Both the position numbers and the translations under genes were made by a program. A stretch of DNA of 13,457 nt from the NCBI GenBank assembly GCA_946614405.1, contig CAMOGZ010000016.1, forward strand, positions 1 through 13,457, written 5' to 3'. This DNA comes from an uncultured Eubacterium sp. GTDB lineage: Bacteria; Bacillota; Clostridia; Peptostreptococcales; Anaerovoracaceae. A model generated the notes under the pieces. That model was not told the DNA's origin, searched no databases, and worked only from the letters and a program-made list of their open reading frames with translations. Below are positions 1,224-13,457 of this stretch, piece by piece (positions within the stretch are counted from its first letter, which is position 1; every line of letters begins with the position of its first letter).

Positions 1224-2891
1224 TCAGTCTTCCAGCATAACGGCGCCCTTGCAGGCTGGTCCTACCATCTTGGAATAGCGGTAGAGCCATCCCTTCTTGA
1301 TGTTCGGCTCACGAGGCACATAGCTCTCGCGGCGCTTCGCCAGTTCTTCGTCAGATACTTTTACGTTGAGCTTTCCGGCCGGAATATCGATCTCGATGAT
1401 ATCGCCTTCCTCGATCAGTCCGATGTTTCCGCCACTGGCAGCTTCCGGACAAACATGTCCGATGGAAGCACCGCGGCTGGCTCCGCTGAAACGTCCGTCA
1501 GTGATCAGAGCGACGGTCTTGTCCAGCTTCATGCCGGCCAGTGCACTGGTGGGATTCAGCATCTCACGCATGCCCGGGCCGCCCTTGGGACCCTCATAGC
1601 GGATGACGACCACATCTCCGTCCACGATCTTTCCATCGTAGATGTCAGCGATGGCATCCTCTTCACAGTCATAGACTCTGGCCGGACCGCTGTGCACCAG
1701 CATTTCCGGAGCAACGGCGCTGCGCTTGACCACAGCTCCCTCCTGGGCGATGTTGCCCCACATGATGGCGATGCCGCCGGTCTCACTGTACGGATTGTCG
1801 ATGGTACGGATGGCATCGGTCTTCACATAAGCGTGCTCGATGTTCTCCCCTACGGTCTTTCCGTTGGCGGTGATCAGGGATGTGTCGATCAGTCCCTTCT
1901 TATTCAGCTCTGCCAGAACAGCCTGTACGCCGCCGGCATAGTTCAGGTCGTGCATGTGGGTGCCGCCGGCGGGAGCCAGGTGGCACAGGTTCGGAGTCTT
2001 GGCGCTCATTTCGTTGAAGATCTCCATATTCAGCTCGATGCCTGCCTCATTGGCCAGAGCCAGAAGGTGCAGCACGGAGTTGGAGGAGCAGCCCAGAGCC
2101 ATGTCGCAGGCCAGAGCGTTTCTCAGAGACTTCTCATTGATGATCTGGCGAGCGGTGATGCCCTTCTCCACCAGACCCATGATGGCCATTCCTGCATGCT
2201 TGGCCAGCATGATACGGCCACTGTGAACAGCCGGGATGGTCCCGTTTCCGGGAAGTGCGATGCCCACTGCCTCGCAGAGACAGTTCATGCTGTTTGCCGT
2301 ATACATTCCGCTGCAGGATCCGCATCCCGGGCAGACGTTCTGCTCGTAATCCATCAGACCATCGTCATCGATGATGCCGGCTTTGCGGGCTCCTACTGCC
2401 TCAAACATCTTGGACAGGGAAGTCTCCACGCCGCCGACCAGACCGCTCATCATGGGGCCGCCGGAGCAAACGACTGCAGGAATGTCCAGACGCAGAGCGC
2501 CCATGACCATTCCCGGAACGATCTTATCGCAGTTTGGTACCAGCACCAGTCCGTCGAACTGATGGGCATTGGCCATGGTCTCCACGCTGTCAGCGATAAG
2601 TTCACGGCTGGCCAGGGAATACTTCATTCCGATGTGTCCCATGGCGATACCGTCGCAAACACCGATGGCAGGAACCATGATGGGGGTTCCTCCGGCCATT
2701 CTGACGCCGGCCTTGACGGCCTCGGTGATCTTGTCCAGGTGCATATGTCCCGGGACGATCTCACTGTGTGCAGATACCACTCCGATCAGCGGACGCTCCA
2801 GTTCTTCCTTGGTATATCCCATTGCATAGAACAGGCTTCTCATTGGGGCACGTTCTACGCCCTTTGTTACGTTATCACTTCGTCTTGTCAT
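1224..2891 (-). CDS. ilvD: dihydroxy-acid dehydratase
   Basis: This cytosolic Fe-S enzyme (555 aa, normal length) dehydrates 2,3-dihydroxy-isovalerate or 2,3-dihydroxy-3-methylvalerate to the 2-oxoacid precursors of valine/leucine and isoleucine. Both family signatures are present: [14 protein letters not shown] (from residue 119, Cys121 a likely cluster ligand) and [12 protein letters not shown] near the C-terminus. [16 protein letters not shown] (187-202) supplies further cluster cysteines, notably Cys193. The early [11 protein letters not shown] block has Gly where the oxygen-tolerant plant [2Fe-2S] type has Cys, so the E. coli-like, oxygen-sensitive [4Fe-4S] type is more likely. That fits an anaerobe. 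The ATG is preceded by GAGGT about 7 nt upstream. A terminator-like hairpin lies just upstream, between ilvC and ilvD, and no separate promoter is evident, so expression probably relies on read-through. Confidence 0.97.
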
Positions 2892-2962: not shown

Positions 2963-4032
<1,070 letters not shown>

Positions 4033-4044
<12 letters not shown>

Positions 4045-4545
4045 CGGTGAAGTGCGTACGTTCCGCTCTACTGCCGTCACGCCGCTGCGGCTGTAGTCCA
4101 CGATCTCGTATTCCCGCATCAGATCCAGGAATCCGTTCAGCTTCTCCGGGGCGCCGGTCACCTCGATGACCATGCTTCCGGTGGAGAGATCCACTACATG
4201 TCCGCGGAACACATCGATGATGTTCTTCAGTGTGCCCCTCTGCTCCGGTGATGCATTGACCTTTACCAGCAGAAGCTCTCTGTACAGAGTGTTCTCCCGG
4301 TTCAGGATGTTCACCTGACGGACCACCTCCATCTTCTCGATCTGGGCGATGATCTGTGCCAGGAACTGCTCTTCCACGTCGAATACCATGGTGATCCGGG
4401 TGATCCCCGGGTCATTGGTACTGGACACCGTGATGGTATCAATGTTGAAGCCCCGGCGTCCCAGGACGCTTCCGACTCTTGTCATAACGTTCGGGGAGTT
4501 TTCGACGAGAACGCTGACGATGATCTTTTTCATTTCTTTTGCCAT
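4033..4545 (-). CDS. ilvN: acetolactate synthase small (regulatory) subunit
   Basis: This 170-residue protein, the usual IlvN/IlvH length, activates the IlvB catalytic subunit and confers feedback control by valine or related amino acids. Residues about 6-80 form an ACT domain (IIVSVLVENSPNVMTRV, then GRRGFNIDTITV) with the classic effector-binding Asn-rich turn. Residues about 85-160 form the second ferredoxin-like domain found in IlvH (ELLLVKV, IIDVFRGHVVDL, VIEVTGAPEKLNGFLDLM). The end RSGVTAVERN is typical of the family. The start ATG lies 13 bp after the ilvB stop, and its AAGGAGGA site includes the last bases of ilvB, so the two subunits are probably translationally linked. The orthologue is also called ilvH. 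Confidence 0.96.
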
Positions 4546-4552
4546 ATTCTCG

Positions 4553-4560
4553 TCCTCCTT
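4553..4560 (-). promoter_or_regulatory. ilvN ribosome binding site overlapping the ilvB stop
   Basis: AAGGAGGA on the minus strand is close to the ideal anti-16S complement and sits 7 nt before the ilvN ATG. Its first two bases are the last two of the ilvB TAA stop, so ribosomes ending ilvB are delivered to the ilvN start. This would help keep large and small subunits balanced. Confidence 0.75.
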
Positions 4561-6220
4561 AATCTGTAATGATATCTTCTACGGTCTTGCCGCCCGGGAT
4601 CATCGGGAGCACGCGCTCCTCCTTCTCGATGCGGCAGTCGATCCAGACAGGACCTTCCGACTTCAGAGCTTCTTCCATAGCTGCCCGGAATTCCTCCATG
4701 GTCTCCACGTGGTATCCCTTCAGTCCGAATCCCTCTGCCAGCTTGACAAAGTCGGTCTTTCTTTCCGGGACGGTGCTGGAGTATCTGCTGCCATAGAAGA
4801 TGGTCTGCCACTGATAGACCATACCCAGGACGCTGTTATTGAAGATCACAGTGATGATGGGCAGGTTCTGACTGACGGCAGTGCATGCCTCATTCAGGTT
4901 CATGTGGAAGGAACCGTCTCCTGTGAGATGGATCACTCTGCAGTCCGGACATCCTTCCTTGGCGCCGATGGCAGCTCCGTAACCGAAGCCCATGGTGCCC
5001 AGGCCTCCGCTTGTGAGGAACTTCTTCGGCTTCTTGAACTTCAGGTACTGGGCCGACCACATCTGATGCTGACCGACATCGGTAACATAGATGGTCTCAT
5101 CGTTGCACATGTTGCTGATGGTCTCCAGGATTTCCTTGGGATCCATTCCGTGGTCCATGGTCCTCTTCTGGGCGGATTTCTTCTTCCAGCCCACGACGCG
5201 GTCATGCCACTCATAATGTCTTGCTTTATCCACATACGGAAGTGCCCGGGTCAGGACCTCCTTCACGTCCCCGACGCAGCACTTGTCGATGGGTACGTTC
5301 TTATTGACCTCACTGGCGTCGATATCGATCTGAACGATGCGGGCACGTCTTCCCCATTTCTTGGTGTTCAGGGCCACACGGTCGCTGAAACGTGCTCCCA
5401 GAGCGATGATGAGGTCTGCCTGGTCGATGGCCCGGTTGGCTGCCACGGTTCCGTGCATGCCAATGAGCCCCAGATCCAGTTCATCATCCGCACTGACAAG
5501 GCCGGATGCCATCAGTGTATGGACGCATGGGATATCTGCCTTATGCAGCAGTTCATTCACCTCATCCCAGGCTTCTGCGGACATGCATCCGCCGCCAAGA
5601 TAAGCCACCGGCTTCTCGGCATTATTGATCATCCGCACCACATCGGCTACATCGTCCTTGGAGGGAACCGGTGCCGGTGTCAGTGCCATGGGAGGCTTGT
5701 TGGTGAACTCTGTCTTCGCTGCGGTCACGTCCTTGGTGATGTCCACCAGGACCGGTCCCTTCCGGCCGCTGTTTGCGACACGGAAAGCATTACGAAGAGC
5801 GTCCTCCAGATTCTCGATATCGTTGACGAAATAATTTAGTTTGGTGATCGGAATGGTGATTCCGGCAATGTAGATCTCCTGAAAGGCGTCTCTTCCGATC
5901 AGGCTGTTATCAACATTGGATGTGATCGCCACCATGGGGATACTGTCCATATATGCTGTAGCGATACCGGTGACCAGGTTCGTTGCACCCGGTCCGCTGG
6001 TTGAAAAGACGACTCCCGTCTTGCCGGTGGCACGGGCATAGCCGTCTGCCGCGTGGCTGGCCCCCTGTTCATGGGCGGTCATCACGTGTTTGATCCGGTC
6101 GCTGTATTTATACAGCTCATCATAGATATTCAGAGCCGCGCCGCCGGGATAGCCAAACACGGTATCCACACCATGATCGAGCAGGACCTCCAGCACGATC
6201 TGTGATCCAGTCAGTTGCAT
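4559..6220 (-). CDS. ilvB: acetolactate synthase large (catalytic) subunit
   Basis: This 553-residue ThDP- and FAD-dependent enzyme condenses pyruvate with pyruvate (valine/leucine branch) or 2-oxobutyrate (isoleucine branch). The catalytic Glu51 lies in TAHEQGASHAADGYARATGK. The FAD-binding middle domain spans about 190-340, and the ThDP motif runs from GDGSF (434-438) to NN (461-462). Trp471 in MVYQWQ matches the E. coli AHAS II tryptophan that favours 2-oxobutyrate, and Lys127 in TKLNY is conserved. The usual ITGQVP segment reads ITSNVD (99-104), so the conserved Gln becomes Asn102. I recall similar SNV/CNV variants in Clostridia. The ATG has GAGGTAA upstream and a strong promoter about 26 nt before the start. 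It is the first gene of ilvBNCD. Confidence 0.95.
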   Translation of the reverse strand: MQLTGSQIVLEVLLDHGVDTVFGYPGGAALNIYDELYKYSDRIKHVMTAHEQGASHAADGYARATGKTGVVFSTSGPGATNLVTGIATAYMDSIPMVAITSNVDNSLIGRDAFQEIYIAGITIPITKLNYFVNDIENLEDALRNAFRVANSGRKGPVLVDITKDVTAAKTEFTNKPPMALTPAPVPSKDDVADVVRMINNAEKPVAYLGGGCMSAEAWDEVNELLHKADIPCVHTLMASGLVSADDELDLGLIGMHGTVAANRAIDQADLIIALGARFSDRVALNTKKWGRRARIVQIDIDASEVNKNVPIDKCCVGDVKEVLTRALPYVDKARHYEWHDRVVGWKKKSAQKRTMDHGMDPKEILETISNMCNDETIYVTDVGQHQMWSAQYLKFKKPKKFLTSGGLGTMGFGYGAAIGAKEGCPDCRVIHLTGDGSFHMNLNEACTAVSQNLPIITVIFNNSVLGMVYQWQTIFYGSRYSSTVPERKTDFVKLAEGFGLKGYHVETMEEFRAAMEEALKSEGPVWIDCRIEKEERVLPMIPGGKTVEDIITD

Positions 6221-6284: not shown

Positions 6285-9200
6285 TCACGAAGTCTCTTCC
6301 ATGTGTTTGTAATGGGCGTAGCGATTTTCCGCATCCTTGCTTCCCACGGAGAAAAGCTCCTTGGCATTCTCCGGGAAAGTGCGCTTCAGAGCGCTGTAAC
6401 GAGTTTCTCCGTCCAGGAAGTCCTCATACTTCATCTTCGGTTCCTTGGAATCAAGATGCAGAGGCTGTTCCTTTCTCGGGTCATAGCGGTACAGCAGCCA
6501 GTAGCCTGAGTCCACTGCCCTCTTCATTTCCTCCTGAACTTTGTTCATACCGCTGCGGATGCCGTGGGATGTGCATGGAGTGTACGCCACGATGACACTC
6601 GGTCCGTCGTACTCCTCTGCTTCCTTCAGGGCTTTGATCAGCTGGTTCGGGTCTGCGCCCATGGCCACCTGTGCCACGTAGACGTTGCCGTAGCTCATCA
6701 TGATGCCGCCCAGGTCCATCTTCTTGCTCCTCTTGCCGCTGGAGGCGAACTGTGCCACGGCGCCGATAGGCGTGGCCTTGCTGCTCTGTCCTCCGGTGTT
6801 GGAGTAAACCTCAGTATCGATGACGAAGACATTGACGTTCTCGCCGCTTGCGATAACATGGGCCAGGCCGCCGAAGCCGATGTCGTAGGCCCATCCGTCT
6901 CCGCCGTACATCCAGAAGGTCTTCTTGGCCAGCTGATCCTTCTGAAGCAGGATCGCCTTTGCCTCCGGAGTGTCTTCCTCCTCCAGCAGAGCACAAAGCT
7001 TATCGGCCGTTCTTCTGGAGCCGTCGAAGTCATCGAAGTTATCCAGATAACGGATGCAGGCCGTCCGGAGTTTTCCTTCCGCCGTGTTGGCCAGATCCTC
7101 TACCTTGGCTTTCACAGACTCCCGCTGGGCTTTGACCGAAAGGTACATACCCAGGCAGAGCTCTGCATTGTTCTCGAACAGAGAGTTGGTCCATGCCGGT
7201 CCGAAACCTCTGTGGTTCGTGGTATATGGAATGCCCGGCATCGATGCGCCCCAGGCCTGGGAGCATCCGGTGCCGTTGGCCCAGTAAACACGCTCGCCGA
7301 AGAGCTGGGTCATCAGCTTGGCATAAGGTGTCTCTCCGCATCCTGCGCAGGCTCCGGAGAATTCCACCAGCGGCTGACGGAACTGGCTTCCCTTCACCGT
7401 CCAGCGGTTGAAGATGTCCCCCTTGTCGGAGAGAGACAGGCCGTAGTCCCAGCAGTCTTTGCTCTGCTGTGTCAGTTCCACCGGTACCATCTCCAGGACT
7501 CCCGTCGGACAGCACTCTGCGCAGCTTCCGCAGCTGGTGCAGTCGTAGTGAGAGACGGCGATGGAGAAGTGATATCCCTTGGCAGATCCGGTGGCCGGAA
7601 TGGTGTCGAATCCCTCCGGCGAATTAGCCTTCTCCTCATCATTCAGGAGATAGGGCCGCAGACATGCATGAGGACATACGATGGCGCAGCGGTTGCACTG
7701 CACGCACTTGGTGGCGTCCCATTTGGGCACGGTGATGGCATAGCCCCGCTTCTCATGAGCCGTCAGACCCATGGGGGTGTTTCCGGTCTCGTAGCCGATG
7801 AAGGAGCTGACCGGAAGGTCGTCTCCCTTCTGGGCGTTGATGGGATGCAGGATCCTCTTCACCACATCCTTGATGTCGCAGTTGCCGCAGTACTCACCGC
7901 TGCCGCAGTCTTCTACTGCGTCATTCAGGATCTTCACGGCGACATTGGGTGTATCCGGAAGGTTCGCCCATTCTGCAGGGACCTTCACCTCGATCAGTTC
8001 CTGATCTCCGGCATCAATGGCGGCGATGTTTCTGGCCACCACGTCGTCACCCTTTGTATAGTAGGTGGAACGAGCTGCTTCCTTCATGCGCTCCAGCGCC
8101 TCTTCCTTGGGGATCAGTCCCGCGATGGAGAAGAATGCTGCCTGAAGCACCGTATTGGTATGGCTGCCCAGTCCCAGACGCATGGCGATCTCCGTGGCGT
8201 CGATGACGTAGAACTTAATGTCGTTGACAGCAAGGTAACGCTTGACGTCATTGGGCAGATGCTCATCCAGCTCGTAGGGCTTCCATTCACAGTTCAGAAG
8301 GAATGTGCCGCCGGGCTTCAGCTCGCTGACCATATCGTAAAGCCGCAGAAAACTCTGGTTGTGGCAGGCCACAAACTCGGCTCTCTTTACATAGTAACTG
8401 CCCCGTACCGGTTCCCTGGAGAAACGCAGGTGGGACTTGGTGACGCCGAAGGACTTCTTGGCGTCGTATTCGAAGTATGCCTGGGCATGCATCCCCGCCG
8501 CTTCTGACAGGATGTGCACGGTGTTCTTGTTGGCTCCCACTGTTCCGTCGCCGCCAAGACCCCAGAACTTGCATCGATAGGCTTTGCCGCCGGATACGCC
8601 CGAGACATGGGGTGCATCCAGGGACAGATGGGTCACGTCATCGTTGATGCCGATGGTGAATCCATCCTTGGGCTGATCCTTGGACAGGTTGTCGAAGACC
8701 GCCAGGATCTGGTCCGGATCGGTGTCCTTGGAGGACAGGCCGTAGCGTCCTCCGATGACCTTGAAGAATCGTCCGGTCTTGACCATAGCTGTACAGAAAT
8801 CCTCATAGAGAGGCTCCCCTGCCGAGCCCATTTCCTTGCAGCGGTCCAGGACTGCCACACGCTTTACGGTCTCCGGGATCACTTCCATCAGTTTCTCCGC
8901 GGAGAATGGCCGGTACAGGTGGACCTGCACATAGCCCACCTTGCGTCCGTGTTCGTTGAGATAATCCACGGCAAGCTTCGCCACGCCGCTGACAGAACCC
9001 ATGGCAACGATGATATCCGTTGCCTCGGGATCGCCGTAATAATTGAACAGCTTATAATCGCGGCCGGTAAGGTCGCTGATCTTCTTAAGATATTTCTCCA
9101 CTACGCCGGGCACCGCATCGTAGGAACGATTGCTGGCTTCCCGGATCTGGAAGTAAACGTCCGGGTTCTGAACGGTGTTCCGCAGGACCGGATGCTCCGG

Positions 9201-9839
9201 ATTCAGTGCTTTCCGTTTGAACTCCGCCAGAGCGTCCTGATCCAGCATGGCCACCAGGGCGTCCTCATCGATGGGCTCGATGGTTGCCAGTTCGTGACTG
9301 GTACGGAATCCGTCGAAGAAGTGCATGAATGGAATGTGACATTCCAGCGCCGCAAGATGGGCCACCGCAGCAAGGTCCATGACCTCCTGGACGTCTCCTG
9401 TGGAGAACATGGCAAAACCGCAGGCTCTGCAGTCCATCACGTCACTGTGATCGCCAAAAATACTCATGGCATGAGTTCCTACCGTACGGGCCGCAACATG
9501 CATGACCGCAGGGAGTCTCTCGCCGGCGATCCGGTGAAGCACCGGGATCATCAGCATCAGTCCCTGGCTGGAGGTGAAGGTGGTGGCAAGGGCACCGGTC
9601 TGCAGTGCGCCGTGCACTGCGCCGATGGCTCCCGCCTCACTCTGCATCTCCTGCAGGGTCACTGGCTGACCGAACATATTCTTCCTTCCCAGAGCGGACC
9701 ACACGTCGGTGTGCTCTGCCATGGGGGAAGACGGCGTGATCGGATAGATGGCGGCGATCTCCGTAAAGTTATAGGCTACGTGGGCCGCCGCCTCGTTTCC
9801 ATCCATGGTCACGAGTTTTTTCTCTTTCTTATCGGGCAT
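6285..9839 (-). CDS. nifJ: pyruvate:ferredoxin (flavodoxin) oxidoreductase, single-chain
   Basis: This 1184-residue ThDP and Fe-S enzyme oxidatively decarboxylates pyruvate with CoA to acetyl-CoA, CO2 and reduced ferredoxin, or runs in reverse. Domain I has IYPITPSSPM (31-40) and the carboxylate-binding Thr35 and Arg118 counterparts. Domain III has FWGLGGDGTVGANK (425-438). The ferredoxin-like domain binds two [4Fe-4S] clusters: Cys712, 715, 718, 722 and Cys767, 770, 773, 777. Domain VI has the proximal cluster Cys831, 834, 859, 1089 and the ThDP motif GDGWAYD (980-986). It lacks the C-terminal extension of the Desulfovibrio enzyme. An insertion before the ferredoxin domain carries three extra cysteines (645, 651, 654). 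GGAGGA precedes the ATG, 15 bp after the fusion gene. Pyruvate is the likely substrate; use of other 2-oxoacids cannot be excluded. Confidence 0.95.
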   Translation of the reverse strand: MPDKKEKKLVTMDGNEAAAHVAYNFTEIAAIYPITPSSPMAEHTDVWSALGRKNMFGQPVTLQEMQSEAGAIGAVHGALQTGALATTFTSSQGLMLMIPVLHRIAGERLPAVMHVAARTVGTHAMSIFGDHSDVMDCRACGFAMFSTGDVQEVMDLAAVAHLAALECHIPFMHFFDGFRTSHELATIEPIDEDALVAMLDQDALAEFKRKALNPEHPVLRNTVQNPDVYFQIREASNRSYDAVPGVVEKYLKKISDLTGRDYKLFNYYGDPEATDIIVAMGSVSGVAKLAVDYLNEHGRKVGYVQVHLYRPFSAEKLMEVIPETVKRVAVLDRCKEMGSAGEPLYEDFCTAMVKTGRFFKVIGGRYGLSSKDTDPDQILAVFDNLSKDQPKDGFTIGINDDVTHLSLDAPHVSGVSGGKAYRCKFWGLGGDGTVGANKNTVHILSEAAGMHAQAYFEYDAKKSFGVTKSHLRFSREPVRGSYYVKRAEFVACHNQSFLRLYDMVSELKPGGTFLLNCEWKPYELDEHLPNDVKRYLAVNDIKFYVIDATEIAMRLGLGSHTNTVLQAAFFSIAGLIPKEEALERMKEAARSTYYTKGDDVVARNIAAIDAGDQELIEVKVPAEWANLPDTPNVAVKILNDAVEDCGSGEYCGNCDIKDVVKRILHPINAQKGDDLPVSSFIGYETGNTPMGLTAHEKRGYAITVPKWDATKCVQCNRCAIVCPHACLRPYLLNDEEKANSPEGFDTIPATGSAKGYHFSIAVSHYDCTSCGSCAECCPTGVLEMVPVELTQQSKDCWDYGLSLSDKGDIFNRWTVKGSQFRQPLVEFSGACAGCGETPYAKLMTQLFGERVYWANGTGCSQAWGASMPGIPYTTNHRGFGPAWTNSLFENNAELCLGMYLSVKAQRESVKAKVEDLANTAEGKLRTACIRYLDNFDDFDGSRRTADKLCALLEEEDTPEAKAILLQKDQLAKKTFWMYGGDGWAYDIGFGGLAHVIASGENVNVFVIDTEVYSNTGGQSSKATPIGAVAQFASSGKRSKKMDLGGIMMSYGNVYVAQVAMGADPNQLIKALKEAEEYDGPSVIVAYTPCTSHGIRSGMNKVQEEMKRAVDSGYWLLYRYDPRKEQPLHLDSKEPKMKYEDFLDGETRYSALKRTFPENAKELFSVGSKDAENRYAHYKHMEETS

Positions 9840-9854
9840 AATATCCTCCGTTTA

Positions 9855-12335
9855 TTATAATTTCAGTCCCAATTCTTCTGCTGCTTCTTCCCTCATCTTA
9901 TACTTCAGGATCTTACCAGCTGCATTCATGGGGAAGGAGTCGACAAATCTAATATACTTCGGAACCTTATGACGCGCAAGACGTCCCACGATAAAATCTC
10001 TCATTTCCGGCTCCGTAATGGATCCTTTTTCTTTCAGAATGATGCAGGCCATGGCCTCTTCACCATATTTCTCATCGGGAACGCCGATGACCTGAACGTC
10101 GCTGACACCCGGATGGGTATAGATGAATTCCTCGATTTCCTTCGGATAGAGGTTCTCGCCGCCGCGGATGATCATATCCTTCAGACGTCCGGTGATGCGG
10201 TAGTTGCCGTTCTCATCCTTGCAGGCCAGGTCTCCGGAATGGAGCCATCCGTCCTCGTCGATGGTCTCTTTGGTGGCCTCCGGCATCTTGTAGTAGCCCT
10301 TCATCTGGTTGTAGCCCTTGGCGCAGAATTCACCATTGACTCCCGGGGGTACTTCCTCTCCGGTCTCCGGGTCGATGATCTTGCAGAGAACATGGGGGAA
10401 GTCGTATCCCACTGTCTCCGTGCGGACATCCAGCGGGTCCGTCCAGGCTGACATGGTGTTGCCCGGGGCGGTCTCCGTCTGTCCGTAGACGCTGACGATG
10501 CCTCTCATATTCATCTCGTCCGGCTGGGCTGCCTTCTTCATCAGTTCCGGCGGGCATCCGGATCCTGCCATGATACCGGTACGCATGTAGGAGAAATCCG
10601 TCTTGCGGTAATCCGGATGATTGAACATGGCGATGAACATGGTTGGCACGCCGTTGAAGCAGGTGATCTTCTCCTGATTGATGCAGGCCAGAGATGACTT
10701 GGCCGAGAAGTAAGGCATGGGACACATGGTGGCTCCGTGGGTCATGGAACTGGTCATACTCAGTACCATGCCGAAGCAGTGGAACATGGGCACCTGGATC
10801 ATCATCCGGTCTGCCGTGGAAAGTCCCATCCGGTCTCCGATGCACTTACCGTTATTTACTACGTTATAATGGGTCAGCATGACTCCCTTGGGGAAGCCCG
10901 TGGTCCCGGAAGTGTACTGCATGTTGCAGACATCGTCCGGCTGGACCTGTGCGGCCAGGCGGGCCGTCTCCTCTGCCGGAACCATCTCTGATCTTGCCAT
11001 GGCCTCTTCAAAGGTCAGGCACCCCTTCTGCCGGAATCCGCAGGTAATGACATTACGCAGGAACGGCAGTCTCTTGCAGTGCAGAGGCTCTCCTGCCTTG
11101 CTTCCGGCGATTTCCGGGCAGAGCTCATTGATGATGGCGGAGTAGTCACTGTCCAGCGCTCCGTCGATCATCACCAGCGTATGGGTATCCGACTGGCGCA
11201 GAAGATATTCTGCCTCGTGGATCTTATATGCCGTATTCATGGTCACAAGCACGGCGCCGATGCGGCAGCATGCCCAGAATGTGATGTACCATGCCGGTAC
11301 ATTGGTGCACCATACCGTTACCTTGTATCCGGGTTTTACTCCCATGGAAACCAGGGCTCTTGCAAACCGGTCCACATCCTCCCGGAACTGCTCATAGGTT
11401 CTGGTATAGTTCAGTGTCGTATATTTGAAACAGTACTGATCCGGGAACTCTTCCGCCATGCGGTCCAGGACCTGGGGGAAGGTCAGGTTGATCAGTTCGT
11501 CTTTCTTCCATACATAACGGCCGGTGCGGTCGTGGTTGTAGAACAGGCTGTTCTGTCTCGCACGGGAACGCTTGAACCGGTTCATGTAGTTCACAAAGTG
11601 CGGCAGGATGACCTCTCTGTCCGTAAGCTCAGGCAGCCACTGGGGCTTCCATTCCAGTGAAACAAAGCCGGAATAGTCCACGCTCTCCAGTGCTCTCATC
11701 ACCTCATCCACCGGGAAGTTTCCTTCACCGATCAGTTCGAACTCTTCTGCACTGAAGCTGTCACGTATGTGAACGTGCTTCACATAAGCGCCCAGGTTGG
11801 TGATGGTCTCAGCAGGCGTCTCATCGCAGTCGCGGTAAGGATGATGGACATCCCAGAGGACTGCGATCTGGTCGCAGGCAAAACGGTCCAGCAGCGCACG
11901 GAGCTGCTCCGTGGAGGAATACACTCCGCAGGTCTTGATGAGGATCGTCACCCCCAGCTCATCAGCAAGTGGGATCAGCTGCTTCAGGTTCTCTTCTGCA
12001 GTCTCTTCATCTTCTGAAGCCCATACGGCTACATAGGGAGAACGGAGATCCGCAGCCAGATTCATCTCGGTGCGGAGAAGATCCATAGTATCCTCCCCTG
12101 CTGTTCCGATATCCAGCGCACTGTCAAAGCAGGCGATGGTCAGATGCTTCTCCCGCAGGGTGCGGTATGTGGATGCCACCGCATAGGTATGGAACGGGCC
12201 GCCACGGTCCGTCAGAGCCGGTGCCGCCGACACGTGGTACATCTCCACGCCATCGAATCCCATTATTTCCGCATCCTCCAGGATCTCCTGCCAGGTCAGT
12301 TCCGGCCAGCCCCGGGTGGAAAATGATAATCTCAT
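9855..12335 (-). CDS. fusion: sugar-phosphate-isomerase-type TIM barrel + AMP-forming acyl-CoA synthetase
   Basis: This is one 826-residue frame with two domains. Residues about 1-255 are a xylose-isomerase-like TIM barrel (sugar phosphate isomerase/epimerase family) retaining VLWDVHHPY (159-167, Asp162), HVHIRD (187-192) and LEWK (Glu228). The strand that usually ends in a Glu ligand reads ILIKTCG (Lys134). Residues about 270-826 are an adenylate-forming acyl-CoA synthetase resembling the ACSF2/YngI group: P-loop [12 protein letters not shown] (474-485), YGQTE (617-621), [20 protein letters not shown] (716-735), and catalytic Lys808 in NAAGKILK. The ligase should convert a fatty or organic acid, ATP and CoA to acyl-CoA, AMP and PPi; short-to-medium chain is a guess. 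No frameshift is seen at the junction. The start is fixed by the ATGA overlap with the upstream gene and GAGGAGGG upstream. The barrel's reaction is unknown. Confidence 0.9.
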
Positions 12336-13457
12336 ATGTCTCCCTCCTCATATACGATCTTATTCACGGCGCTGACATAAGCGTCGATGGAAGAACCGAT
12401 GATATCGGTAGAAATACCCCGTCCGGAATAGACCTTTCCGGTATTGCTTCTCAGTCTTACGACGGTCTCACCCATGGCTTCTCTTCCTTCGGTGACCGCC
12501 TGGATCTGGAAATCGTCCAGTTCATAGTGGCTTCCCACGATCTGCTCGATGGCCAGGAAGGACGCATCGATAGGTCCGTCTCCCACAGCCAGACCGTCCA
12601 GGGTCTGTCCCTCTTTCTCAAGGCGGATATGGCTGGTGGCCATGATGATATTGCCGGAGTTGATCACGTAGCTTGCTACCTTATATGTAGGCGGTACCTG
12701 CAGAGCCGTGGATGCGATGATGGCATCCAGTTCCTTGGACCCTACGGATTCCTTCTTGGATGCGATGCGGGTGAAAGCCTCGAATACCTTCACGGAATCC
12801 TCTTCACTGAGATCGTATCCGATCTCGGCAGCCACCTTCATCACGGCAGTCATGTCATCATGAATGGTAAGAACGGCGCCGGAATTATCGTGGATCTCGG
12901 AATCATAAGTGGATCCCTTACCTCTTTCGGTCTCGCAGATCCGGCGGATCTGTGCCGTGGTTCTGCGAAGCTCTGTATCACGAACGCTGCAGGAGACATC
13001 GTATTCGCTTCCGCGCACCTTCAGGATGTTCACCAGATCCTCCAAAGATGTGGTGAAACCTCCGCATGCGGTGACCTTTACTTCATCTGCGCCCGCAAAT
13101 ACGGCGGAGACCGCACATGCCTCAGCAAGGGAGATCTCATTGGAAACCAGGACGCCCAGGCGTACGTGCTCCGGCAGATCTTCTCTGGCTGCCTTCACGG
13201 AGTCGTAGAACTCTCCGGGCAGGAGGTTCCCTGCGGTGTCACAGATCGTAACGATGTCGGCGCCTGCCTTAACGGCGGCGTGGATGATCTGATTCAGGAA
13301 ATCCTTATCACTTCTTCCGGCATCCTCAGCTACGAACTCTACTTCACTGCAGACAGCCTTGGCCTCAGCCACCAGCTTCTTCACCTTCTCCATGACCGCA
13401 TTGGGCTTAAGACGGGAGATGTATTCCATCTGAACGGAGCTCACGGGAGCCACCACC
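12332..13457 (-). CDS. LeuA-like protein with altered metal site and intact regulatory domain, N-terminus cut
   Basis: The frame is open at the window edge and the visible 374 codons start inside the barrel, so the first part (roughly 80-100 residues, including the DxTLRDG motif) is missing. Residues 1-145 (counted from the edge) follow the 2-isopropylmalate synthase TIM barrel: EVEFVAEDAGRSD (38-50) and ICDTAGN (71-77). Residues about 250-370 are a good LeuA regulatory (dimer) domain with AVGDGPIDASF and GRGISTDIIGSSIDAYVSAVN, the fold that binds leucine in LeuA. The HCHND metal motif is replaced by LVSNE (103-107) and the TINGIG block by TACGGF, so two His and one Asn ligand are lost. The LeuA linker with GIHQDG and GKHSGRHAL is also not recognisable. 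A standard 2-isopropylmalate or citramalate synthase activity is therefore doubtful. It ends in an ATGA overlap with the fusion gene. Confidence 0.85.
   Translation of the reverse strand, partial: VVAPVSSVQMEYISRLKPNAVMEKVKKLVAEAKAVCSEVEFVAEDAGRSDKDFLNQIIHAAVKAGADIVTICDTAGNLLPGEFYDSVKAAREDLPEHVRLGVLVSNEISLAEACAVSAVFAGADEVKVTACGGFTTSLEDLVNILKVRGSEYDVSCSVRDTELRRTTAQIRRICETERGKGSTYDSEIHDNSGAVLTIHDDMTAVMKVAAEIGYDLSEEDSVKVFEAFTRIASKKESVGSKELDAIIASTALQVPPTYKVASYVINSGNIIMATSHIRLEKEGQTLDGLAVGDGPIDASFLAIEQIVGSHYELDDFQIQAVTEGREAMGETVVRLRSNTGKVYSGRGISTDIIGSSIDAYVSAVNKIVYEEGDI
12342..12349 (-). promoter_or_regulatory. ribosome site and ATGA overlap coupling the LeuA-like and fusion genes
   Basis: GAGGAGGG lies inside the last codons of the LeuA-like gene, 6 nt before the fusion-gene ATG at 12335. 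The stop TGA of the upstream gene (12334-12332) overlaps that ATG as ATGA. This arrangement fixes the start of the fusion protein and indicates translational coupling, suggesting that the two products are needed together. Confidence 0.8.

Follow-up and report, generated by a model that had tools for sequence, protein, structure and literature searches.

A LeuA homologue without its catalytic site, encoded beside an acid-activating ligase in gut and rumen bacteria, suggests a reused sensor for another leucine route

Enzymes of the LeuA type bind their metal ion through two His residues and one Asp, and passages of the papers describing this also report that exchange of the catalytic Arg for Lys abolishes activity in related enzymes (PMC11532901, PMC10464499). 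A descendant of LeuA with a changed role is described in part of PMC11532901, namely methylthioalkylmalate synthase (MAM). Excerpts on the short form of ATP phosphoribosyltransferase describe HisZ as a non-catalytic subunit with an end-product pocket, which controls the separate catalytic subunit HisG (PMC9734150). Among acid-activating enzymes, MbcS is presented in excerpts of PMC10026030 as a branched-chain acyl-CoA synthetase acting on short branched acids. That rumen microbes make leucine from isovalerate has been known since the 1960s (work cited in a passage of PMC7356843).

Here, we analyzed a stretch of 13,457 nucleotides (hereafter the window), which is contig C16 of a genome of 1.46 Mb that is 89% complete in 223 contigs. 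It encodes a LeuA homologue, termed pseudo-LeuA below. Homologues of this kind, with the active site gone and the regulatory end retained, occur in numerous gut and rumen bacteria beside an acid-activating ligase, which suggests a reused sensor for another leucine route. Pseudo-LeuA resembles LeuA in its barrel fold, a remnant of the linker and the LeuA allosteric domain, and it is nested inside bacterial LeuA. However, it lacks the metal ligands and the greater part of both the active site and the linker, its genomes usually have no leuB, and its partner is a ligase. While MAM kept catalysis and lost the regulatory domain, pseudo-LeuA shows the opposite loss. In the role proposed here, pseudo-LeuA would sense leucine for the ligase by analogy with HisZ, which senses histidine for HisG, and judging from the sequences it shares two traits with HisZ, the loss of catalytic residues and a fixed partner that has kept its own. 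HisZ likewise descends from an enzyme, an aminoacyl-tRNA synthetase. The fold of pseudo-LeuA is unrelated, its end product would be leucine, its partner is an acyl-CoA ligase and its allostery is putative.

The pseudo-LeuA gene and its family

The pseudo-LeuA gene of the window (12332..13456, minus strand) is an open frame that codes for 374 aa, the C-terminal part of a ~471-aa protein, with the N-terminus and the leader lying beyond the contig edge. In a domain profile search the frame matched an HMGL-like barrel and, at 105 bits (cut-off 24.9), the allosteric (regulatory) domain of LeuA (PF08502, LeuA_dimer; 12356..12739, minus strand, residues 240-367). At the former metal site (13064..13150, minus strand), where the His, His and Asn of LeuA are replaced by Leu, Ser and Cys, phmmer comparison with solved LeuA chains aligned HCHND with LVSNE and set TINGIGER opposite TACG plus a four-residue gap, and the register was unchanged when the family profile was aligned to four solved LeuA chains. 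An earlier note on this DNA, made from the sequence alone, had claimed these replacements at Leu103, Ser105 and Cys131 (residues 103-131 counted from the contig edge, i.e., 13064-13150), together with an intact frame free of frameshifts and a retained regulatory domain. Both alignment methods bear out the replacements, the coordinates are right, the frame is open as it is in the full-length relatives, and the domain score supports the last claim.

The fragment exposes only the His pair of the LeuA metal ligands, the Asp site being past the contig edge. The nearest among the listed relatives, P0001, which is 99% identical to the window protein, has MKQPVE in place of the LRDGEQ of LeuA, so that the metal Asp is Gln and the catalytic Arg is Lys. 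About 30 linker residues, including the FAH and TYE motifs of true LeuA, are absent in the full-length relatives. A structure model of pseudo-LeuA has the LeuA fold (pLDDT 87.7, pTM 0.59), with M. tuberculosis LeuA and a related MAM as its top structural matches. Among NCBIfam LeuA models, the best score of the window fragment was 238 bits (cut-off 532), far under every LeuA cut-off, and the few listed relatives with a source name are all called 'hypothetical protein'. Therefore, the label 2-isopropylmalate synthase, which had been thought the probable outcome of automated annotation, is not inevitable.

To describe the family, we used database proteins and the best 80 of 554 loci that were confirmed with a relative in one genome scan. 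Isolated occurrence in a single genome, which the earlier note would have taken as a sign of decay, is thus not what we found. Listed relatives are ~470 aa long, and removal of three sequences of at most 440 aa (L065, L078, P0118) from a set of 200 left 197 (119 database proteins and 78 loci). In these 197 the metal Asp, the Asn and the second His are missing throughout, and a single member (L063) retains the first His. The catalytic Arg is kept in 24 and is Lys in 145, and the linker columns of FAH and TYE are empty in all 197. All five residues are present in 22 true LeuA. The motif at the old site varies among members (KISNE, MISNE, RCSNE, SCSDA and others). In 20 more divergent members, the Asp and either His were found in none, the Asn in two and the Arg in four, with an empty FAH column in 18/20 and an empty TYE column in 20/20. 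Traces of the old site are borne by three early-branching members, namely the Asn in L139 and L140 and GGIGN in L141.

In a tree of 68 proteins, obtained like our other trees by a quick search with support from SH-aLRT only, the 36 pseudo-LeuA formed a single clade (SH-aLRT 100) nested within bacterial LeuA, in answer to the earlier note, which had asked whether the L-V-S-N-E variant forms a conserved clade of its own. Members of the clade are labelled Bacillota, Bacteroidota and Synergistota, which are MAG labels with possible binning errors. We found no description of the family in open-licence PubMed Central text. In the same text, 'isopropylmalate synthase' with 'pseudoenzyme' gave no match, and no paper with 'catalytically inactive' looked relevant by its title or the start of its abstract.

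Conservation was assessed on 78 locus-derived pseudo-LeuA and 22 true LeuA, leaving out L087, L107, L117 and the fungal types. The barrel of pseudo-LeuA had a mean conservation of 63% and its regulatory domain one of 79%, vs. 76% and 59%, respectively, in true LeuA. Constraint has shifted away from the catalytic part, and it is now the allosteric domain that is best conserved, contrary to true LeuA. The allosteric domain of pseudo-LeuA has also kept the LeuA-type GDGP..DA block. In 12 hand-picked pairs of pseudo-LeuA genes dN/dS was at most 0.21, and the regulatory part had the lower value in all 11 pairs where both could be computed. Nevertheless, 48 of 240 barrel columns are conserved at 90% or more and several positions are near invariant, which would seem to exceed the need of a bare spacer.

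The ligase partner and the T-box leaders

Pseudo-LeuA is followed by a gene for an 826-aa fusion protein (9855..12335, minus strand; PF01261, PF00501, PF13193), which joins a xylose-isomerase-like TIM barrel (11643-12278, minus strand; PF01261) to an AMP-forming acyl-CoA ligase (9912-11465, minus strand; PF00501, PF13193). The stop of pseudo-LeuA and the start of the fusion overlap by four bases (12332..12335, minus strand), as in 46 of 79 loci; ten loci have a one-base overlap. The first domain of the fusion lies directly downstream of pseudo-LeuA in 79 of 81 loci (the window and the best 80 of 554), and since just 115 and 100 bases remain in the other two, in 79 of the 79 with room for it. 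The two genes also adjoin in 20/20 further loci and, by coordinates, in 31/31 carriers among 393 genomes of the class. In this class sample, pseudo-LeuA was defined by a score of at least 468 bits (29 genomes) plus two contig-edge fragments (G176, G411); the 31 comprise the window, 19 fetched loci and 11 loci assessed from their coordinates and score.

The pairing is not mutual: a LeuA-like gene does not accompany every such ligase, as a related fusion stands alone in 18 fetched loci. In one genome, G246, an intact LeuA lies on a different contig. The unlinked fusions group together in the ligase tree (support 97), and only this grouping was used because the outgroup, one ligase at the end of a very long branch, makes the root meaningless. 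The ligase Lys is kept in 85/85 readable linked and 18/18 unlinked fusions. The conserved Glu of the TIM barrel is present in all 18 unlinked fusions vs. 22 of 100 linked ones, 75 of which have Lys instead, and the barrel of the linked fusion may therefore have lost a metal site of its own.

The window itself has no T-box match, the leader of its pseudo-LeuA falling past the contig edge. In 19 loci scanned, an Rfam T-box over the gathering score was found directly upstream of pseudo-LeuA in seven, and all seven read CUC or CUG by hand. A script detected the core of a T-box upstream in 66 of 97 loci. Leucine is the specifier in 62 of these 66, and in the remaining 31 loci no core was found just upstream. 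These values depend on the fixed rule that we used for the specifier; a looser rule with a shifting register gave 34 leucine out of 53 read and a pairing-based rule 56 out of 64, and displacing the register by one base left no leucine reading. The four non-leucine cases under the fixed rule were either unread (L007, L080) or misread (L071, L073) and by eye have CTC or CTG. The relevant part of PMC2494555 places the specifier 1-5 bases ahead of GAG, and the register used here is 6 bases. As a control, the rule was applied to relatives from the genus, where it gave the correct Thr, Ile and Val for the leaders of genes matching thrS, ileS and valS, respectively. It failed before a trpE, where the expression missed the right site and read Phe, while TGG is seen by eye at the same spacing. 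The genus mates G006 and G009 have leaders before pseudo-LeuA that scored 86 and 89 bits (gathering score 93), with the specifiers CTG and CTC, respectively. Of the 18 fusions without pseudo-LeuA, 11 have a T-box, each reading CTC (leucine).

A second kind of ligase, fused to HTH and cupin domains, occurs in the same neighbourhoods. Divided into two types by a rule of our own, these ligases are preceded by an Ile T-box in 22/25 cases (type A) and by a Val T-box in 20/25 (type B). From the Leu, Ile and Val specifiers before the three ligases, it appears that there is one ligase for each branched-chain amino acid. The HTH-cupin ligases (L012, L021, L024, L064, L071 and others) are candidate enzymes for 2-methylbutyrate and isobutyrate. 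The best NCBIfam match of one of them is MbcS, although the 439 bits fall under the MbcS cut-off of 850. In one locus a cobalamin riboswitch was found downstream of the ligase fusion (L142:5962-6126).

Pathway genes in carrier genomes

Both leuA and leuB over cut-off were absent in 43 of 50 carriers searched, which are largely MAGs, related to each other, and in which the absence of a gene can reflect incompleteness. Three carriers have a bacterial-type leuA over cut-off, three a fungal type and one another LeuA-like gene, and leuB over cut-off is confined to these same seven; LeuB-like matches below cut-off at ~260 bits (G064, G106) were scored as absent. In the class sample leuB was present in 5/31 carriers vs. 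235/362 other genomes (E up to 1e-90; Fisher p 2e-7, the genomes being related). Since 7/50 and 5/31 carriers still have leuB, the route would be more than a mere replacement. We rejected pseudo-LeuA as a substitute LeuA, since leuB over cut-off is missing in 43/50 and 26/31 carriers.

Within the genus of the window, pseudo-LeuA was found in 3 of 17 genomes, none of which has leuA, and a fungal-type LeuA in 11 of the 14 genomes without pseudo-LeuA. The earlier note had asked whether the same genome has a canonical leuA; none was found in this 89%-complete genome (G000), and neither were leuB and leuC. In place of leuC and leuB, G006 and G009 have only an aconitase-sized frame of ~650 aa and a LeuB-like frame below cut-off. 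G006 also has consecutive LeuA-like, aconitase-sized and isocitrate-dehydrogenase-like frames (G006:C1:964493-969523), which are probably a Re-citrate synthase cluster. The carriers G069, G102 and G110, which have no leuA and leuB, encode a LeuC-like protein that passes the cut-off of TIGR02086 and may serve another dehydratase reaction.

Downstream of the fusion, the window encodes a pyruvate:ferredoxin oxidoreductase (PFOR; 6285..9839, minus strand; TIGR02176, 1648 bits vs. a cut-off of 911), a candidate for the carboxylating enzyme. It is followed on the same strand by ilvB for the acetolactate synthase large subunit (4559..6220; TIGR00118), a probable ilvN for the small subunit (4033..4545), ilvC for ketol-acid reductoisomerase (2963..3958; TIGR00465) and ilvD for dihydroxy-acid dehydratase (1224..2891; TIGR00110). 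The ilvB, ilvC and ilvD products are over their cut-offs, and ilvN was recognized by eye from its translation, with no NCBIfam match at E 1e-60. The window stretch thus combines ligase and PFOR, with no transaminase; in the fetched stretches an oxidoreductase gene was present in 37/81 loci and a transaminase in 19/81, and the one VorB and one transaminase tested were both over their cut-offs.

Among the 50 carriers, ilvC was found in 12 (one partial), including the window's genome, G006 and G009. An HTH-cupin ligase was present in the stretch in 29 of 38 ilvC-negative vs. 1 of 12 ilvC-positive carriers, and none turned up when the window's genome, G006 and G009 were searched with one type B query. 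Read from its genes, the content of the window genus fits de novo synthesis of valine and isoleucine, with leucine made from isovalerate.

Proposed role and alternatives

We propose that pseudo-LeuA is a dead LeuA that senses leucine for its partner, a ligase activating isovalerate, in a route from isovalerate to leucine, a reading to which we assign a probability of about 60% and which is supported by the pairing, the selection pattern and the T-box. Speaking against it are the carriers that have retained leuB, the 31 loci lacking a T-box core, the presence of an oxidoreductase or transaminase gene in only some of the stretches, the conservation of the barrel and the ligase fusions that stand alone. 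A bacterial 2-isopropylmalate synthase would have lost its condensing activity and been retained for its leucine-responsive allosteric domain. The AMP-forming ligase encoded with it would most likely activate isovalerate; isovaleryl-CoA would then be converted to 2-oxoisocaproate by reductive carboxylation through an oxoacid:ferredoxin oxidoreductase, and 2-oxoisocaproate to leucine by transamination. When leucine is plentiful, pseudo-LeuA most likely binds it at the allosteric domain and restrains isovalerate activation by the complexed ligase; when charged tRNA-Leu is scarce, the leucine T-box would switch the operon on. We give slightly better than even chances to the fuller history, in which a dead LeuA joined the ligase in a single event as its obligate leucine-sensing subunit, feedback control thereby moved to the isovalerate route in bacteria that had lost the isopropylmalate pathway, and the gene later spread between phyla together with the ligase.

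A role as a structural or activating ligase subunit, concerned with assembly or the channelling of isovaleryl-CoA while the T-box alone provides control, would also account for the fixed pairing, the overlapping genes and the conservation of the barrel. However, the strongest constraint falls on the allosteric domain rather than the barrel, and the retained GDGP..DA block is of the LeuA type; we consider such a role possible but unlikely. The earlier note had left the choice between a protein that senses a branched-chain product without catalysis of its own, regulating its partners, and one that catalyzes a different reaction. Of these the sensor fits best, and we rank it higher because of the separate clade, the fixed gene partner and the leucine T-boxes. 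Catalysis of some other reaction, independent of metal and with a related oxo acid or acyl-CoA as substrate, is still considered because the barrel, with its near-invariant positions, is under purifying selection. Nevertheless, the residues at the old site differ between members, which is unusual for an active site, and the catalytic linker is gone, making this more doubtful than a structural role.

The reactions of transaminase, oxidoreductase and ligase can in principle run backwards, and the operon might instead break down branched-chain amino acids to acid and ATP, with pseudo-LeuA as the sensor. This we regard as quite improbable: a leucine T-box activates its genes under leucine shortage, which suits synthesis, and the HTH-cupin ligases with Ile and Val T-boxes are found chiefly in the ilvC-negative carriers. 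As the genome is incomplete and fragmented and the contig edge cuts pseudo-LeuA, an artefact also had to be weighed. Decay or a frameshift of leuA is ruled out by the 554 confirmed loci, full-length open frames, low dN/dS and the single clade, and misalignment by the register shared between phmmer and the family profile, leaving an artefact of any kind with next to no probability.

If the sensor role is correct, it would be a clear case of feedback control transferred between pathways through the sensor domain of a dead enzyme. It would also provide a concrete gene set for the acid-activating step of the isovalerate-to-leucine route, for which the leucine T-box is a separate line of evidence on amino-acid specificity, along with putative matching ligases for isoleucine and valine in other genomes. 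A LeuA-like gene in a gut genome would then not always be proof of the ordinary leucine pathway.

Finally, a small CbiA/ParA-like ATPase of ~225 aa is encoded in 26 of the 81 stretches (L010, L012, L024 and 23 others), often beside VorB. In the window, ilvD is followed by a nitrilase-superfamily gene (271-1194), whose nearest NCBIfam model is Nit6803, with a score far under the cut-off.
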